Positions 20,840-25,645 of a DNA stretch of 32,591 nt are shown here, in pieces. Under the pieces are notes generated by a model. That model saw only the letters and a program-made list of their open reading frames with translations. It ran no database searches and had not been told where the DNA came from. The position numbers and the translations under genes were made by a program. The stretch spans positions 1 to 32,591 of the forward strand of contig CALUFQ010000035.1 of the NCBI GenBank assembly GCA_944319925.1. The letters are read 5' to 3'. The stretch's first letter is position 1. Each line of letters begins with the position of its first letter. Source of the stretch: an uncultured Paraprevotella sp. Lineage in GTDB: Bacteria > Bacteroidota > Bacteroidia > Bacteroidales > Bacteroidaceae.

Positions 20840-21613
20840 CTATTTGATGTTCTCCCGGATGCGGGTAAGATAGGCATTGAGCGCGTCCTCGTCGCGCGCG
20901 TCGATGATGGCGATGAGGTCTTTCAGCTCTTCCCGGATGCGTTCCACATGGTTTTTGGTGCGTGGGTTGAACAGGATTTCGCGCAACAGGCCGTCGTCCT
21001 CGCTCAACACGCCTTGGGCGATGCCCAGGTGGCGTTTGAAGGTAGTGCCCGGTGCGTCCTGATGTTTCATCACGGCAGCGAACACGAAGGTCGAGACAAA
21101 CGGGATGCTCAGCGAGTAGGCCATGGTTTCGTCGTGCTCGTCGAAGCTGTATTCACATACGTGAAGCCCCAGCCGGTTGTAGAGGTCGCGGAAAAAGATG
21201 CGCCCCATGTAGTCGCCTTCGTTGATGACGATGGCGTTTTCGTGGCTCAGGCTGCCGAGGTTGGCAAACGTGGGACCGAACATCGGGTGGGTGCTGACAT
21301 AACGCATTCCTGTGCTTTCGTAGAACTCCTTGAATCCCGTCTTGACCGAAGAGATATCGCTCAAGATGCAGTCTTGGGGCAAATGGGGAATGACCTGGCG
21401 AAACACTTCGAGCGTGTATTTCAGAGTCACGGCGTTGATGACCAGTTCGGGACGGAAATTGCCGATTTCGTCCATTGAGGTGAACCGCTGCGTGTTGTAC
21501 ATGAAGCGCAGGCGTTTGGCATCGATGTCGAACACGGCGGTCTCATGCTCGAAACTCAACAGGTCCACGAAGAAGGAGCCCATTTTCCCGGCTCCAAGAA
21601 TCAGTATTCTCAT
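20840..21613 (-). CDS. tyrA: Prephenate dehydrogenase
   Basis: TyrA oxidises prephenate to 4-hydroxyphenylpyruvate with NAD(P)+. The 257-residue protein begins with the dinucleotide-binding loop GAGKMGSFF (about 7-15) and has the conserved STHPMFGPTFAN motif and a His/Glu-rich helical C-terminus (EYSFDEHDETMAYSLSIP). No chorismate mutase or ACT domain is attached, so it depends on the separate mutase encoded just upstream. It is the last gene of the pheA operon, 12 nt after the DAHP synthase fusion. Confidence 0.93.
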   Translation of the reverse strand: MRILILGAGKMGSFFVDLLSFEHETAVFDIDAKRLRFMYNTQRFTSMDEIGNFRPELVINAVTLKYTLEVFRQVIPHLPQDCILSDISSVKTGFKEFYESTGMRYVSTHPMFGPTFANLGSLSHENAIVINEGDYMGRIFFRDLYNRLGLHVCEYSFDEHDETMAYSLSIPFVSTFVFAAVMKHQDAPGTTFKRHLGIAQGVLSEDDGLLREILFNPRTKNHVERIREELKDLIAIIDARDEDALNAYLTRIRENIK

Positions 21614-21625
21614 GGCTTGTCCGTG

Positions 21626-22699
21626 TTATTTGTTGATGAGTTCCATTTGCTGGCGCACACTCTCCTCATGGATGGCTTCGAAGATTTTTTTCACGAAGTC
21701 GGCATCCATGCCGCACAGTGAGCCTTGCGCGCCGCGCTTGTCAAGGATTTCGGAGTAGCGTCCGGTCTGTACCACGGCCATGTTGTGCTCCTTCTTATAA
21801 GTGGCGATTTCGCGGCTGATGCGCATGCGGCGTGTGAGCAGGTTCATCAGCTCGTTGTCTATCTCGTCGATTTGTGTGCGCAGGGCCGAGAGGCTTTCCG
21901 TGGTTTCCATGTTTTCGCGGATGACCAGCCGGTCGAGGATGAAATCGAGCACTTCGGGCAACACCTGTTGTTTGGCGTCGCTCCACGCGCTGTCCGGGTT
22001 GCAGTGGCTTTCCACGATGAGCCCGCGAAATCCCATGTCCATGGCCTGTTGGCACAACGGGGCTATCAGGTCGCGGCGTCCGCCGATGTGGCTCGGGTCG
22101 CAGATGATGGGCAGGTCGGGATGACGGCGGTGCAACTCGATGGGGATGTGCCACATCGGGGCGTTGCGGTAAATTTTCTGGTCGATGCTGGAGAAACCGC
22201 GGTGGATGGCCCCTAAGCGGGTGATGCCCGCGCCATTGATGCGTTCCAACGCGCCAATCCAAAGCTCAATGTCCGGGTTCACGGGGTTTTTCACCAAAAT
22301 GGGGATGTCCACGCCCCGGAGCGAGTCGGCGATTTCCTGCATGGCAAAGGGGTTGGCCGTGGTGCGCGCTCCAATCCACAGCAGGTCGATGCCCGCCTTG
22401 AGCGCGGCCTCCACATGTTTCGGCATAGCCACTTCGGTGGCGGTGAGCATGCCTGTTTCCTCCTTGACCCGTTGCATCCAGGGCAGGGCCGCTTCGCCCA
22501 TGCCTTCGAAACCTCCGGGCTTGGTGCGCGGCTTCCACACGCCGGCACGGAATATCTTGCAGCCCCGGTCGGCCAACTGGCGGGCGGTGTTCATCACTTG
22601 TTCCTCGGTTTCGGCACTGCACGGGCCGGCGATGACGAGGGGTCGCTTGTTGTCGTCCACTCCCGGAATATTCAGGGGAGAAAGTTGTAGATTGTCCAT
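21626..22699 (-). CDS. Bifunctional DAHP synthase/chorismate mutase
   Basis: The first about 260 residues are a type I-beta DAHP synthase that condenses phosphoenolpyruvate and erythrose-4-phosphate: GPCSAE at about 25-30, KPRTKPGGFEGMG, GARTTANP and CDPSHIGG are all present. The last about 90 residues are an AroQ-type chorismate mutase (LRTQIDEIDNELMNLLTRRM...). One protein therefore starts the shikimate pathway and also commits chorismate to Phe/Tyr. This order of domains is known in Bacteroidetes and allows the mutase to control the synthase. It lies 19 nt after the aminotransferase gene. Confidence 0.95.
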   Translation of the reverse strand: MDNLQLSPLNIPGVDDNKRPLVIAGPCSAETEEQVMNTARQLADRGCKIFRAGVWKPRTKPGGFEGMGEAALPWMQRVKEETGMLTATEVAMPKHVEAALKAGIDLLWIGARTTANPFAMQEIADSLRGVDIPILVKNPVNPDIELWIGALERINGAGITRLGAIHRGFSSIDQKIYRNAPMWHIPIELHRRHPDLPIICDPSHIGGRRDLIAPLCQQAMDMGFRGLIVESHCNPDSAWSDAKQQVLPEVLDFILDRLVIRENMETTESLSALRTQIDEIDNELMNLLTRRMRISREIATYKKEHNMAVVQTGRYSEILDKRGAQGSLCGMDADFVKKIFEAIHEESVRQQMELINK

Positions 22700-22718: not shown

Positions 22719-23909
22719 TCAGTGGTTAAATACGGCTTGTATGCGCTTGAGCGCTTCTGCCAGTTTCTCTTTCTTGGCGCAGAGCGAAATGCGGATGTAG
22801 CGTTTGCCGTTGCTGCCGAAGATGAACCCCGGGGTGATGAACACGCGGGCTTCGTGGAGCACTTTTTCCGTGAGCTGTTCCACGTCCTTGCAACTGTCAG
22901 GGATACGTCCCCACAGGAACATGCCCACTTGCGACGGGTCGAAGGTGCATCCCAGCGTGGTCATGATTTGTTCGGCCAAGGCCCGCCGCTCGGCATAGAC
23001 ACGGAAGTTGGCTTCTTCGTGCCACTCGGTATCGTTTTGGTAGGCGGCTGCCGCAGCCAGCTGCATGGGGCGGAAGGTGCCTGAGTCGATGTTGCTCTTC
23101 ACCTTCAGGATCCATTTCACAAATTCCGCATTCGTGGCCAGCATGCCCACGCGCCATCCCGGCATGTTGTGGCTTTTGCTCATGGAATTGAATTCGATGC
23201 AGCATTGCTTGGCACCGGGCACTTGCAGGATGCTCAGCCGCTCATGGTTGAGGATGAAGCTGTAAGGGTTGTCGTTGACGATGACGATGTTGTGCCGCTG
23301 CGCGAAGTCCACCAGTTTCTCGTAGGTTTCGCGACGTGCGTTGGCACCCGTGGGCATGTTCGGATAATTGCTCCAAAGGATTTTCACGCCCGTCAAGTCC
23401 ATCTGTTCCAAGGCATCGAAATCCGGTTGCCATCCGTTTTCGGGCAGCAGGTCGTAGTAGGTGATTTGCTCCCCTAGCAGTTTGCTGAGCGAGGTGTAGG
23501 TGGGATAGCCGGGGTTGGGCACCAACACCCGGTCGCCGGGATTGGCGAGGGCGAGCGTCACGTGCAGGATGCCTTCCTTGGAGCCGATGAGCGGCTGGAT
23601 TTCGCTGTCCGGGTCCAAGTCCACGCCGTACCAGCGTTTGTAGAATGCGGCCATGGCGCGGCGCAGTTCCGGGATGCCCACGGTGGGTTGGTAGCCATGC
23701 GCGTCGGGCTTGTGTGCTTCTTCACACAATGTCTCGATGGTCTTCGGCGAAGGGGGCATGTCGGGGCTTCCGATAGCCAGGCTGATGACGTCCTTGCCTT
23801 CCGCGTTCATGCGAGCCACTTCTTTGAGCTTCACCGAGAAGTAGTATTCTTTCACGGCGGCCAGCCGGTCGGCAGGCCGTATGCCCGGGTTAAATTGTCT
23901 GTCTTCCAT
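22719..23909 (-). CDS. Class I/II PLP aminotransferase, probably aromatic or prephenate
   Basis: The 396-residue protein is a fold-type I aminotransferase. Motifs include PGDRVLVPNPGYPTY, SNYPNMPTGA, VNDNPYSF and the PLP-lysine at about 245 in SMSKSHNMPGWR, followed by the Arg that binds the substrate carboxylate near the end (RYIRISLC). The sequence resembles the aspartate/LL-diaminopimelate subgroup. Its place between pheA and the DAHP synthase fusion argues for conversion of phenylpyruvate and hydroxyphenylpyruvate (or prephenate) to the amino acids. Its start overlaps the end of pheA by 20 nt, so the two are tightly coupled. The exact substrate is inferred from context. Confidence 0.88.
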   Translation of the reverse strand: MEDRQFNPGIRPADRLAAVKEYYFSVKLKEVARMNAEGKDVISLAIGSPDMPPSPKTIETLCEEAHKPDAHGYQPTVGIPELRRAMAAFYKRWYGVDLDPDSEIQPLIGSKEGILHVTLALANPGDRVLVPNPGYPTYTSLSKLLGEQITYYDLLPENGWQPDFDALEQMDLTGVKILWSNYPNMPTGANARRETYEKLVDFAQRHNIVIVNDNPYSFILNHERLSILQVPGAKQCCIEFNSMSKSHNMPGWRVGMLATNAEFVKWILKVKSNIDSGTFRPMQLAAAAAYQNDTEWHEEANFRVYAERRALAEQIMTTLGCTFDPSQVGMFLWGRIPDSCKDVEQLTEKVLHEARVFITPGFIFGSNGKRYIRISLCAKKEKLAEALKRIQAVFNH

Positions 23910-24732
23910 CTTGATATTCTCCTAAAATTTTGAGTTCCTTGGTCAGCGGGGTAATCGCGTCAATGCTTTGCGAATAACGGGTATAATCATCAAACGCCAA
24001 GTCCACGTAAAACATGTATTGCCATTCCTTGCCCACGAAAGGCAGGGACTGGATTTTGGTCAGGTTCAGCTTGTAAAACGAGAGGATGGACAACACCTGC
24101 GAGAGGGCACCTTGTTCGTGGGGAAGAGTGAAGACCAGGCTGGCCTTGTTGGTCTGCCGGATGTCGCGCAGCAGGTTGGCGCGTTGCGGCTGGCAGAACA
24201 CGAGGAAGCGGGTGAAGTTGTGTTTGTTGGTTTCAATGCCTTCTTCCAATACCTTCATGCCGTAGAGCGGGGCGGCAAATTTGGAACAGATGGCGGCGTG
24301 GCCGTGCAGCTGTTCGCGGCTGATGATTTCGGCCGCCCCGGCGGTGTCTCCGGCTTCCACCACTTTGAGTGCGGGGTGGTGTCCCAGGAAATCGCGGCAT
24401 TGCATGAGTGCCACGGGATGGGAGTTGACTTCCTGGAGGTCGTTCCAATCGTCTTCGGGGAGGCAAAGCAGGCTGTGCGAGATGCGCAGTTTGTGTTCCC
24501 CCACGATGGTCAGCCCGCTGTTGCGAAGCAGCTCATAGTTGTGTAACAGGCTGCCGGCGATGGTGTTTTCGATGGCGGCCATGCCGATGATGGTGCTGTC
24601 CCGCTTCACGGTGTCGAACACTTCCTCGAACGTGGCGCAGCAGATAAGTTCGATGTCTTCATGTTCGAAGTAATAGTGGGCGGCCATGTCGTGGTATGAG
24701 CCTTTGATGCCTTGGATTGCGATTCGTTTCAT
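23890..24732 (-). CDS. pheA: Prephenate dehydratase with ACT domain
   Basis: This converts prephenate to phenylpyruvate. The 280-residue protein begins with IQGIKGSYHDMAA, has the catalytic-region motif HNFTRFLVF at about 165-175 and a C-terminal ACT domain (LVFTLPHEQGALSQVLSIL...), which normally binds Phe for feedback inhibition. No chorismate mutase is fused, matching the separate mutase in the same operon. It is the first gene of the Phe/Tyr operon and is preceded by a leader with a Phe/Tyr-rich peptide and a terminator hairpin, so it is probably controlled by attenuation as well as by feedback. Confidence 0.95.
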   Translation of the reverse strand: MKRIAIQGIKGSYHDMAAHYYFEHEDIELICCATFEEVFDTVKRDSTIIGMAAIENTIAGSLLHNYELLRNSGLTIVGEHKLRISHSLLCLPEDDWNDLQEVNSHPVALMQCRDFLGHHPALKVVEAGDTAGAAEIISREQLHGHAAICSKFAAPLYGMKVLEEGIETNKHNFTRFLVFCQPQRANLLRDIRQTNKASLVFTLPHEQGALSQVLSILSFYKLNLTKIQSLPFVGKEWQYMFYVDLAFDDYTRYSQSIDAITPLTKELKILGEYQDGRQTI

Positions 24733-24754
24733 GTTTCTTGGTTTGTCGTTTTAC

Positions 24755-24787
24755 AAAAAAGTCCCGCTTCGGTCGGAAGCGGGACTT
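24755..24787 (-). terminator. Attenuator terminator of the pheA operon
   Basis: On the minus strand AAGTCCCGCTTC (24776-24787) and GAAGCGGGACTT (24759-24770) make a perfect 12-bp stem with a 5-nt loop, followed by a six-T tract (24755-24760). It lies 18 nt after the leader-peptide stop and 22 nt before the pheA ATG, the standard position of a transcription attenuator. Confidence 0.88.
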
Positions 24788-24867
24788 AATCGTTTTTATG
24801 TTTGTTAATATGGTTTTCTGTTTGGTACATACACGACTTCCCGCTTCACTTTGTGGCTAAAGTAAAA
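24776..24867 (-). promoter_or_regulatory. Alternative RNA pairings of the attenuator (1:2 and 2:3)
   Basis: Segment 1 is the codons Phe15-Tyr16-Phe17 (24859-24867), which can pair for 9 bp, including two G-U pairs, with segment 2a (24844-24852, AAAGUGAAG). Segment 2b is GAAGCGGGA (24839-24847), fully complementary over 9 nt to TCCCGCTTC in the 5' arm of the terminator (24776-24784). Segments 2a and 2b share GAAG, so the two pairings exclude each other. A ribosome held on the aromatic codons would block 1:2, allow 2:3 and prevent the terminator. Confidence 0.75.
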
Positions 24868-24909
24868 GTAAAAGAAGAAGTAAAAGTATGTATTGAACAA
24901 TTCTCTCAT
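24805..24909 (-). CDS. Phe/Tyr-rich leader peptide of the pheA operon
   Basis: The frame runs from ATG at 24909 to TAA at 24805-24807, 34 codons. Residues 8-17 are ten consecutive aromatics, YFYFFFYFYF (six Phe, four Tyr), with further Phe at 5 and Tyr at 27 and 34. Such a run by chance is very unlikely, and the operon downstream makes exactly these two amino acids. The peptide is not expected to work as a protein; the ribosome translating it is the sensor of charged tRNA-Phe and tRNA-Tyr, as with PheL of enteric bacteria. The start lies about 18 nt after the predicted transcription start; there is no Shine-Dalgarno site, as is normal in this phylum. An in-frame ATG farther upstream (25008) lies before the promoter and is rejected. 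Confidence 0.88.
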   Translation of the reverse strand: MRELFNTYFYFFFYFYFSHKVKREVVYVPNRKPY

Positions 24910-24933
24910 GTTTTGCACTTTCTGAATATGTGG

Positions 24934-24964
24934 CAAAATTAGGCATTTTTTTGTTTTCTGCCAA
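24934..24964 (-). promoter_or_regulatory. Promoter of the pheA leader
   Basis: On the minus strand TTGG (24961-24964) and TAATTTTG (24934-24941) are separated by 19 nt, which fits the Bacteroides TTTG-N19-21-TAnnTTTG promoter. Transcription would begin near 24927, about 18 nt before the leader-peptide ATG, giving an attenuator RNA of roughly 170-195 nt. Confidence 0.75.
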
Positions 24965-25035
24965 TCTTGGCGTTGTTTTTTTCGCGAAAAAACAGATTTT
25001 TGTTTCAAAATACCTAATTTTGATGACGCGCAAGC

Positions 25036-25068
25036 GGGACAAACCAGGCCAATCAGCCTGATTGTCCC
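25036..25068 (-). terminator. Hairpin just after the TPR gene
   Basis: GGGACAA (25036-25042) and TTGTCCC (25062-25068), with inner AGGC/GCCT, form a stem starting 1 nt after the TPR stop codon. The U tract on the minus strand is poor (CGCTTGCGCGTC), so it may slow or trim rather than end transcripts entering the pheA leader. Confidence 0.5.
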
Positions 25069-25069
25069 A

Positions 25070-25645
25070 TCAAATATTGCTGAACTTCCCGCCCAATGCT
25101 TTCATTGTGTCGGGCGAGGTTTCCAATGCCTTTTTCAGGTCGTCCATCGCGCCGGCCTGGTCGTGTAGCAGAAATCTGACACGTCCCCGTTCCTTGTATC
25201 CTTCGCTGAAGTCCGGCAGGCGTTTCAGGGCTTCGTCCATAACAGCCAGGGCCAAGTCGAGCCGGTGTGTGGCCGTGTAGGCGGTGCTCAGTCCGATGTA
25301 GGCATTCCCTTGACGGGGGTGCTGTTCCTTCACCTTATTATAATATAAGATGGCCGATTCCGCGTCTCCTTGGGCAAGGCGCAGGGCCGCTTTGCGGAGC
25401 AGGGCTTCTTCCGGGGAATCTTCGGTTGCGGGGAGAATGCGGTCGATGTCGGCTTCGGCCTCTTTCGGGCAACCCATGCTTTGGAACACTTCGGCGCGCA
25501 GCAAGAGGGCTTCTTTGTCGTTTCCGTCTTGTGCAAGGATTTGTGTCAGCACGGCGATAGCCGCCAACGGGTCTCCCGCTTCGACTTTTTCGTGTGCTTC
25601 TTTTATATGTATATGTTTGTCCTCTTTTTCCATGTGTCGTTTCAT
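25070..25645 (-). CDS. Tetratricopeptide-repeat protein, unknown function
   Basis: The 191-residue protein has no signal peptide or membrane segment, so it is probably cytoplasmic. It consists of about four helical TPR-like repeats with the usual spacing of small and hydrophobic residues, for example GDPLAAIAVLTQILAQDGNDKEALLLRAEVF, GDAESAILYYNKVKEQHPRQGNAYIGLSTAY and HDQAGAMDDLKKAL. TPRs mediate protein contacts; no partner is evident. It diverges from glmS and has its own -7 box. The start could also be the ATG at 25633. Confidence 0.82.
   Translation of the reverse strand: MKRHMEKEDKHIHIKEAHEKVEAGDPLAAIAVLTQILAQDGNDKEALLLRAEVFQSMGCPKEAEADIDRILPATEDSPEEALLRKAALRLAQGDAESAILYYNKVKEQHPRQGNAYIGLSTAYTATHRLDLALAVMDEALKRLPDFSEGYKERGRVRFLLHDQAGAMDDLKKALETSPDTMKALGGKFSNI

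Follow-up and report, generated by a model that had tools for sequence, protein, structure and literature searches.

Architecture of the pheA leader region

The window, that is the entire 32,591-nt stretch of DNA from an uncultured Paraprevotella analysed here, carries on its minus strand an operon whose first gene is pheA, encoding prephenate dehydratase (23890..24732; PF00800, E 2.3e-54). It is followed on the same strand by genes for a class I/II aminotransferase (22719..23909; PF00155, Aminotran_1_2), a DAHP synthase fused to chorismate mutase (DAHPS/CM; 21626..22699; PF00793 + PF01817, DAHP_synth_1 + CM_2) and prephenate dehydrogenase, tyrA (20840..21613; PF02153, PDH_N). For tyrA the top NCBIfam matches are prephenate dehydrogenases, with scores below their cut-offs. 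Among the named species of the genome collection, Paraprevotella clara and P. xylaniphila come closest in PheA, at 89% each, and Paraprevotella MAGs reach up to 99%. One genome of the same genus (G020, completeness 99%) yielded no pheA and possibly belongs to a Phe auxotroph.

The sequence-only reading had placed before pheA a promoter-like TTGG-N19-TAATTTTG, a 34-codon leader with a ten-codon Phe/Tyr run, and a 12-bp terminator with a T tract; all are confirmed in the sequence, and all parts lie on the minus strand. The -33-like element TTGG (24961..24964) is separated by a 19-nt spacer from the -7 element TAATTTTG (24934..24941). We take the latter to be of the Bacteroidota TAnnTTTG type, and TTGG is an imperfect match to the -33 consensus TTTG. 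A sigma-70 promoter scan of 24500-25200 returned none, as expected for the phylum. Across relatives, TAnnTTTG occurs at most 110 nt from the leader ATG in 98/133 loci, compared with 181/2680 mononucleotide shuffles (134 loci, 20 shuffles each).

The leader frame of 34 codons plus stop (24805..24909) runs from an ATG at 24909 to a TAA at 24807-24805, translates as MRELFNTYFYFFFYFYFSHKVKREVVYVPNRKPY and is kept in relatives. Its codons 8-17 are ten consecutive Phe/Tyr codons (24859..24888), the presumptive regulatory codons, which also constitute region 1. Even eight such codons in a row (TWY x8, any frame) are found at one place only in the 3.1-Mb genome, as three overlapping matches, and the reversed-pattern control gives 0 matches. 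The leader stop codon lies 17 nt before region 3, AAGTCCCGCTTC (24776..24787), the 5′ arm of a predicted terminator hairpin of 12 pairs with a 5-nt loop (24759..24787); its 3′ arm is region 4, GAAGCGGGACTT (24759..24770), and its T tract occupies 24755..24760, the first two T also being paired in the stem. For the leader RNA of 180 nt the predicted folding energy is -47.3 kcal/mol (z = -5.2), a value matched by 0/200 shuffles.

In leader frames Phe is encoded by TTT more often than by TTC (272:96 for the family; eight genes of the window give 31:93), while Tyr codons show no significant shift in usage; the TTT bias could be caused by pairing of region 1 with region 2 (see below) or by slow decoding. 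Farther upstream, just past a TPR gene, there is an inverted repeat GGGACAA...TTTGTCCC (25036-25068), noticed by eye and lacking a T tract, possibly the 3′ end of the upstream transcript. A copy resembling region 3, TCCCGCTT (25032-25039), lies upstream of the promoter; since it occurs in only 2/8 genus loci (the window itself and its 99% neighbour, L050), it was dropped as a chance match.

Conservation of leader and terminator in Bacteroidota

Relatives were collected with PheA as query from 61 genomes of the family (49 matched), 18 of the genus (17) and 148 of the order (68), and with the prephenate dehydratase (PDT) family from 198 genomes of the phylum (172 matched). A leader was required to have at least 7 Phe/Tyr in 12 codons, and a unit was defined as an aromatic leader, Trp being counted among the aromatics, plus a terminator, for which the scan by definition demands a T-rich tract directly after the stem. 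Four of the 64 family and genus loci were left out: L060, with 2 nt upstream, and L047-L049, whose PDTs are 28-32% identical; L161, with 15 nt upstream, was retained and scored as a miss. The order sample omits G081, one of 65 order genomes outside the family in which a match was found, and the class sample comprises the upstream DNA of 26 among 44 matched same-class genomes.

Conservation of the run and the hairpin had been named as one of the tests of the original proposal, and its outcome is favourable. A leader is present in 59/60 family and genus loci, 54/65 order loci (one being a duplicate of a family locus) and 23/29 class and phylum loci, compared with 38/3080 dinucleotide shuffles and 7/154 reverse strands. 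Within the class, 21/26 loci reach 7 Phe/Tyr. The complete unit is found in 131/150 Bacteroidota loci and on 2/150 reverse strands. The 19/150 loci without a unit comprise ten that lack an aromatic leader, eight in which the leader scores too low or a scored terminator is missing, and one truncated by the end of its contig. A collection of named genomes, many probably of the same species as the family set, has the leader in 74/79 loci with enough upstream DNA. Among 43 loci inspected outside the class, a leader with a terminator was seen only in G376 and G234. Trp codons occur in or near the run in 21/70 leaders, a raw count without background from which we claim no Trp sensing. At one locus (L042, genome G049) leader and terminator are absent and the TAATTTTG promoter element stands immediately upstream of pheA, the arrangement that a deletion of the attenuator would leave.

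The prevalence of the terminator bears on the level at which such a leader might act. Its structure could govern access to the pheA start instead of transcription, and in the window the hairpin does end only about 27 nt before the pheA ATG (24732). Yet a T-rich tract follows the stem, as the scan definition demands, and such stems are present in most loci; moreover, outside the tandem loci the terminator lies anywhere from 7 to 176 nt before the gene, which is too variable for sequestering of a start site. Translational attenuation is accordingly highly improbable, and the hairpin is treated below as a terminator of transcription.

Region 2 and the predicted competing hairpins

The earlier reading regarded the attenuator as complete. 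Its leader and terminator are indeed present, but by themselves these two do not make an attenuator, and it had overlooked the strand that could form both antiterminator and protector. The strand is present at 24847-24839 and co-varies in relatives. Its core, which we call region 2 (GAAGCGGGA; 24839..24847, minus strand), starts 11 nt past the last Phe codon of the run and repeats part of the terminator's 3′ arm; it can therefore take the place of that arm in pairing with the 5′ arm, AAGUCCCGCUUC. Region 2 would thus act either as protector with the codon run (1:2) or as antiterminator with region 3 (2:3), region 3 being shared between the antiterminator and the terminator (3:4). Judged from the sequence, this adds the missing half, and the four predicted regions of a Yanofsky-type attenuator are complete.

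The minimum free energy fold of the window's leader pairs the codon run with a purine-rich stretch behind it and leaves the terminator as a separate hairpin; folded separately, the terminator, the antiterminator region and the protector reach -20.3, -22.2 and -17.4 kcal/mol. In relatives, at least half of region 2 is predicted to pair with the run in 57/58 family, 48/54 order and 19/21 class and phylum loci. The mean fraction of region 2 paired is 0.85, 0.73 and 0.72 in family, order and class, against 0.72, 0.58 and 0.51 with shuffled runs, and the mean energy of the 1:2 hairpin is -14 to -15 kcal/mol against -9 to -10 for shuffled runs. Locus by locus, the 1:2 hairpin beats shuffled runs (p <= 0.05) in only 33/58 family, 27/54 order and 12/21 class and phylum loci.

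With a simulated ribosome parked at the run, 2:3 forms in 58/58 family, 52-54/54 order and 21/21 class and phylum loci, and in the complete folded leader 3:4 forms in 57/58, 50/54 and 19/21. Nascent RNA up to region 3 and free of ribosomes favours 2:3 in 37/58 family loci (the window included), 26/54 order and 19/21 class loci, so that termination in the fed state must depend either on region 2 being covered by a moving ribosome or on 1:2 forming before 2:3 can.

Mutually exclusive 2:3 and 3:4 hairpins are also what a riboswitch would display, and the leader RNA might bind Phe, Tyr or a regulator, with the ligand setting the choice between them. No Rfam family, T-boxes included, reaches its gathering score in the window, however, and we saw no conserved aptamer-like domain; the parts that recur are the codon run and regions 2, 3 and 4. 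A switch operated by a protein or small molecule is thus very unlikely. Below the threshold, a lax scan gives 20.5 bits for Phe_leader (RF01859; gathering 55), and Thr_leader (RF00506) scores 28.8 bits against a gathering score of 55, with a match at 24753-24814 that in our reading derives from the terminator hairpin.

Co-variation and spacing of region 2

Region 2 was sought across the whole interval from run to terminator. Its pairing with region 3 beats the shuffled interval (p <= 0.05) in 54/58 family, 43/55 order (one duplicate) and 18/21 class and phylum loci; in the remaining 4/58, 12/55 and 3/21 it is no better than chance (p > 0.05). The match between the two regions is 91% compared with 74% after swapping, a comparison that is biased because region 2 was chosen by its pairing. 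A fairer control is the cross-test with foreign region 3 sequences: over the 76 order, class and phylum loci, a foreign region 3 does as well as the locus's own on the region 2 interval in a median of 7% of trials (mean 13%). The arms shift together across families, as CCCGC/GCGGG, CCTGT/ACAGG, CCCGG/CCGGG, CCTCG/CGAGG and CCCAT/ATGGG. One feature expected of a ribosome-mediated attenuator, a predicted antiterminator that competes for the 5′ arm of the terminator and co-varies with it in relatives, is present in most of these loci.

Although sought over that whole interval, region 2 starts 5-18 nt past the run in 132/133 loci, with medians of 12, 11 and 9 nt in family, order and class. According to PMC4833913, a ribosome covers about 12 nt of mRNA on the downstream side of the codon that it is reading. 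The spacing is thus roughly one ribosome footprint, so that a ribosome anywhere in the run would leave region 2 wholly or mostly free, whereas a few codons farther on region 2 would be covered. It is the arrangement in which a stalled ribosome would mask region 1 and leave region 2 exposed.

The same region allows a different explanation to be weighed, namely that the leader encodes a functional small protein and that the hairpin is an ordinary terminator with fixed leakage. A leader frame with a conserved run does exist in most relatives, and close relatives keep KVKREVV or nearly so after it. Across relatives, however, the part behind the run is read in different frames (VKRE, EAGSC, SRAG) or lies past the stop, while its RNA is kept. 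Region 2 starts in all three leader frames (57, 44 and 32 loci), and the leader stop precedes it in 25/133 loci and falls inside or after it in 108/133, which argues that the RNA is conserved rather than the tail of the peptide. A plain terminator would also leave region 2 and its co-variation unexplained. We hold a small protein followed by a leaky terminator to be highly improbable.

Tandem units

Two units in series precede pheA in 8/150 loci (L146, L151, L153, L219, L225, L229, L232 and L236). Their arm sequences differ between the two units, for example TCCCGTT and TCCCACCTT in L146. By eye, L152 appears to be a ninth tandem locus. A further pair is seen on the minus strand upstream of an aminotransferase-tyrA operon (L286, genome G163), where Tyr-rich leaders MMTTYTFSYFYYWFRTP and MVNFEFYYGFYYYLD stand in tandem and a terminator was scored for the first of them only. 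To our knowledge, leader-peptide attenuators arranged in tandem have not been described.

Leader codons and the genes of the operon

The sequence-only reading had proposed that mixed Phe and Tyr codons suit an operon serving both amino acids, and genomes in which the operon is split lend support to this. We mapped tyrA in 80 genomes (92 had been selected at first) and classed 70/79 loci, those that have both a leader and a tyrA. Leaders with at most one Tyr occur in 1/60 loci that have tyrA close to pheA and in 4/10 that have it elsewhere (p = 0.001, all ten unlinked loci included). The Tyr fraction as such differs weakly between the ten unlinked loci and the linked ones (p = 0.048). Among the linked loci the exception is L225, whose leader has 8 Phe and 1 Tyr; another leader upstream of it contains Tyr codons.

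The unlinked leaders with at most one Tyr belong to genomes in which pheA stands alone, as judged by tblastn over about 5-6 kb downstream. Two of the ten unlinked genomes, both with mixed leaders, were set aside here: G192, in which pheA is too near a contig end, and G319, which has no clear tyrA. The four genomes with pheA alone and a leader kept (G089, G099, G109 and G163) belong to four different families, and their leaders have Tyr counts of 0, 0, 0 and 1. Leaders are thus Phe-only or nearly so in 4/4 of these loci, while at most one Tyr is found in 1/64 of the others (p = 6e-6, for classes drawn after seeing the data). Where tyrA lies elsewhere and pheA is accompanied by DAHPS/CM, with or without the aminotransferase (G112, G200, G208 and G222), the leaders are mixed. 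Two more genomes with pheA alone, G172 and G201, have no pheA leader.

Seven of ten split-off tyrosine loci (G089, G200, G099, G163, G172, G201 and G109) have a unit of their own, with leaders such as MNNTFGYYAFYYYFFYNN in G089 and MILFSKYYYYYFYSLNGI in G200, and Tyr exceeds Phe in 6/7, G109 being the exception; no attenuator was found at the tyrosine loci of G112, G208 and G222. From these sequence comparisons, codon content tracks operon content, which is what amino-acid-specific sensing would predict. A ligand-binding RNA does not predict codon identities that follow the genes, and the variation of Tyr codons with operon content likewise speaks against a leader conserved for a small protein.

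Discussion

The leader very probably serves as a ribosome-mediated transcription attenuator responsive to charged tRNA-Phe and tRNA-Tyr. Sequence and comparison show which parts it has, how these are ordered and spaced, the co-variation, and the agreement of codons with genes; the transcription start, the coupling, the order of folding and the response to amino acid supply are what we infer from them. RNA polymerase would start about 20 nt upstream of the leader ATG, with a ribosome behind it. When Phe- or Tyr-tRNA is short, the ribosome would stall in the ten-codon run and cover region 1; region 2, left free, would pair with the emerging region 3 as antiterminator, and transcription would read through into pheA and the aminotransferase, DAHPS/CM and tyrA genes. 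When both tRNAs are plentiful, the ribosome would pass over region 2 to the stop codon, 3:4 would pair and transcription would end in the T tract at about 24755; once the ribosome is released, region 1 would hold region 2.

The attenuation mechanism itself is known, and what is new, as far as the sequences tell, would be the breadth, the retuning of codons and the tandem units. The enteric pheL/pheA attenuator (RF01859, Phe_leader) shares Phe codons in a leader peptide, a terminator before pheA and alternative hairpins. The window differs from it in the mixed Phe and Tyr run and in an operon that adds tyrA, DAHPS/CM and the aminotransferase, and the Bacteroidota loci differ in the leader stop, which in most of them (108/133) falls inside or after region 2. 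Some of these attenuators may already be listed by Lopatovskaya et al. (2010). In the portion of PMC1183508 concerned, pheA is named as one of the attenuated operons of E. coli and S. typhimurium, and attenuators of the trpL/hisL type are described with regulatory codons, a race between ribosome and RNA polymerase, and I:II, II:III and III:IV hairpins, all of which have observed or proposed counterparts here; the present system differs in having two amino acids in one ten-codon run, in belonging to Bacteroidota and in standing in tandem in some relatives.

In the genome of the window, hisG (L310, contig C14) is preceded by a His leader, MKNIVARHHHHPNGC, and then a terminator, AAAGGCTTGCCG/CGGTGAGCCTTT, which together are likely a His attenuator. 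No Trp leader was found within 600 nt upstream of the matched domain of trpE (L311), where an open frame ends shortly upstream.

The original claim that little is known of such control in this phylum stands in part: our searches of an open-licence library turned up no experimental study of a pheA leader in Bacteroidales, but Flavobacteriaceae had already furnished clues. The relevant part of PMC9723704 (2021) gives strong indications that leader peptides attenuate amino acid operons of Flavobacterium psychrophilum, and describes structured 5′ elements that precede pheA and hisG in Flavobacteriaceae, the one at pheA being conserved. These concern the same phylum and gene, and the description given there does not include the peptide, its codons, the antiterminator or the wider range. 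Other sources touch the subject from a distance, as far as the sections concerned go: PMC7366714 reports leader-like short frames in B. thetaiotaomicron with pheA unmentioned, PMC2965389 does not contain the words Bacteroides and Bacteroidetes, and PMC8305728 treats his attenuation in general terms only.

On balance we favour the view that the pheA attenuator is ancestral in Bacteroidota and has persisted through most of the history of the class, its codon run being re-edited as genes move (to Phe-only where pheA is alone, with Tyr-richer copies on split-off tyrosine operons) and the whole being doubled in several lineages into a serial gate whose two attenuators differ in arm sequence. If this is true, transcription would have to be tightly coupled to translation on such leaders class-wide. 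Since attenuation of this type depends on a ribosome that follows RNA polymerase closely, conservation in Bacteroidia would be indirect evidence for coupling. The split operons amount to an experiment of nature on what is sensed by the run, and the tandem units lend themselves to testing how attenuators behave in series. Aromatic amino acid control in a dominant gut phylum would thereby centre on classical ribosome-mediated attenuation.
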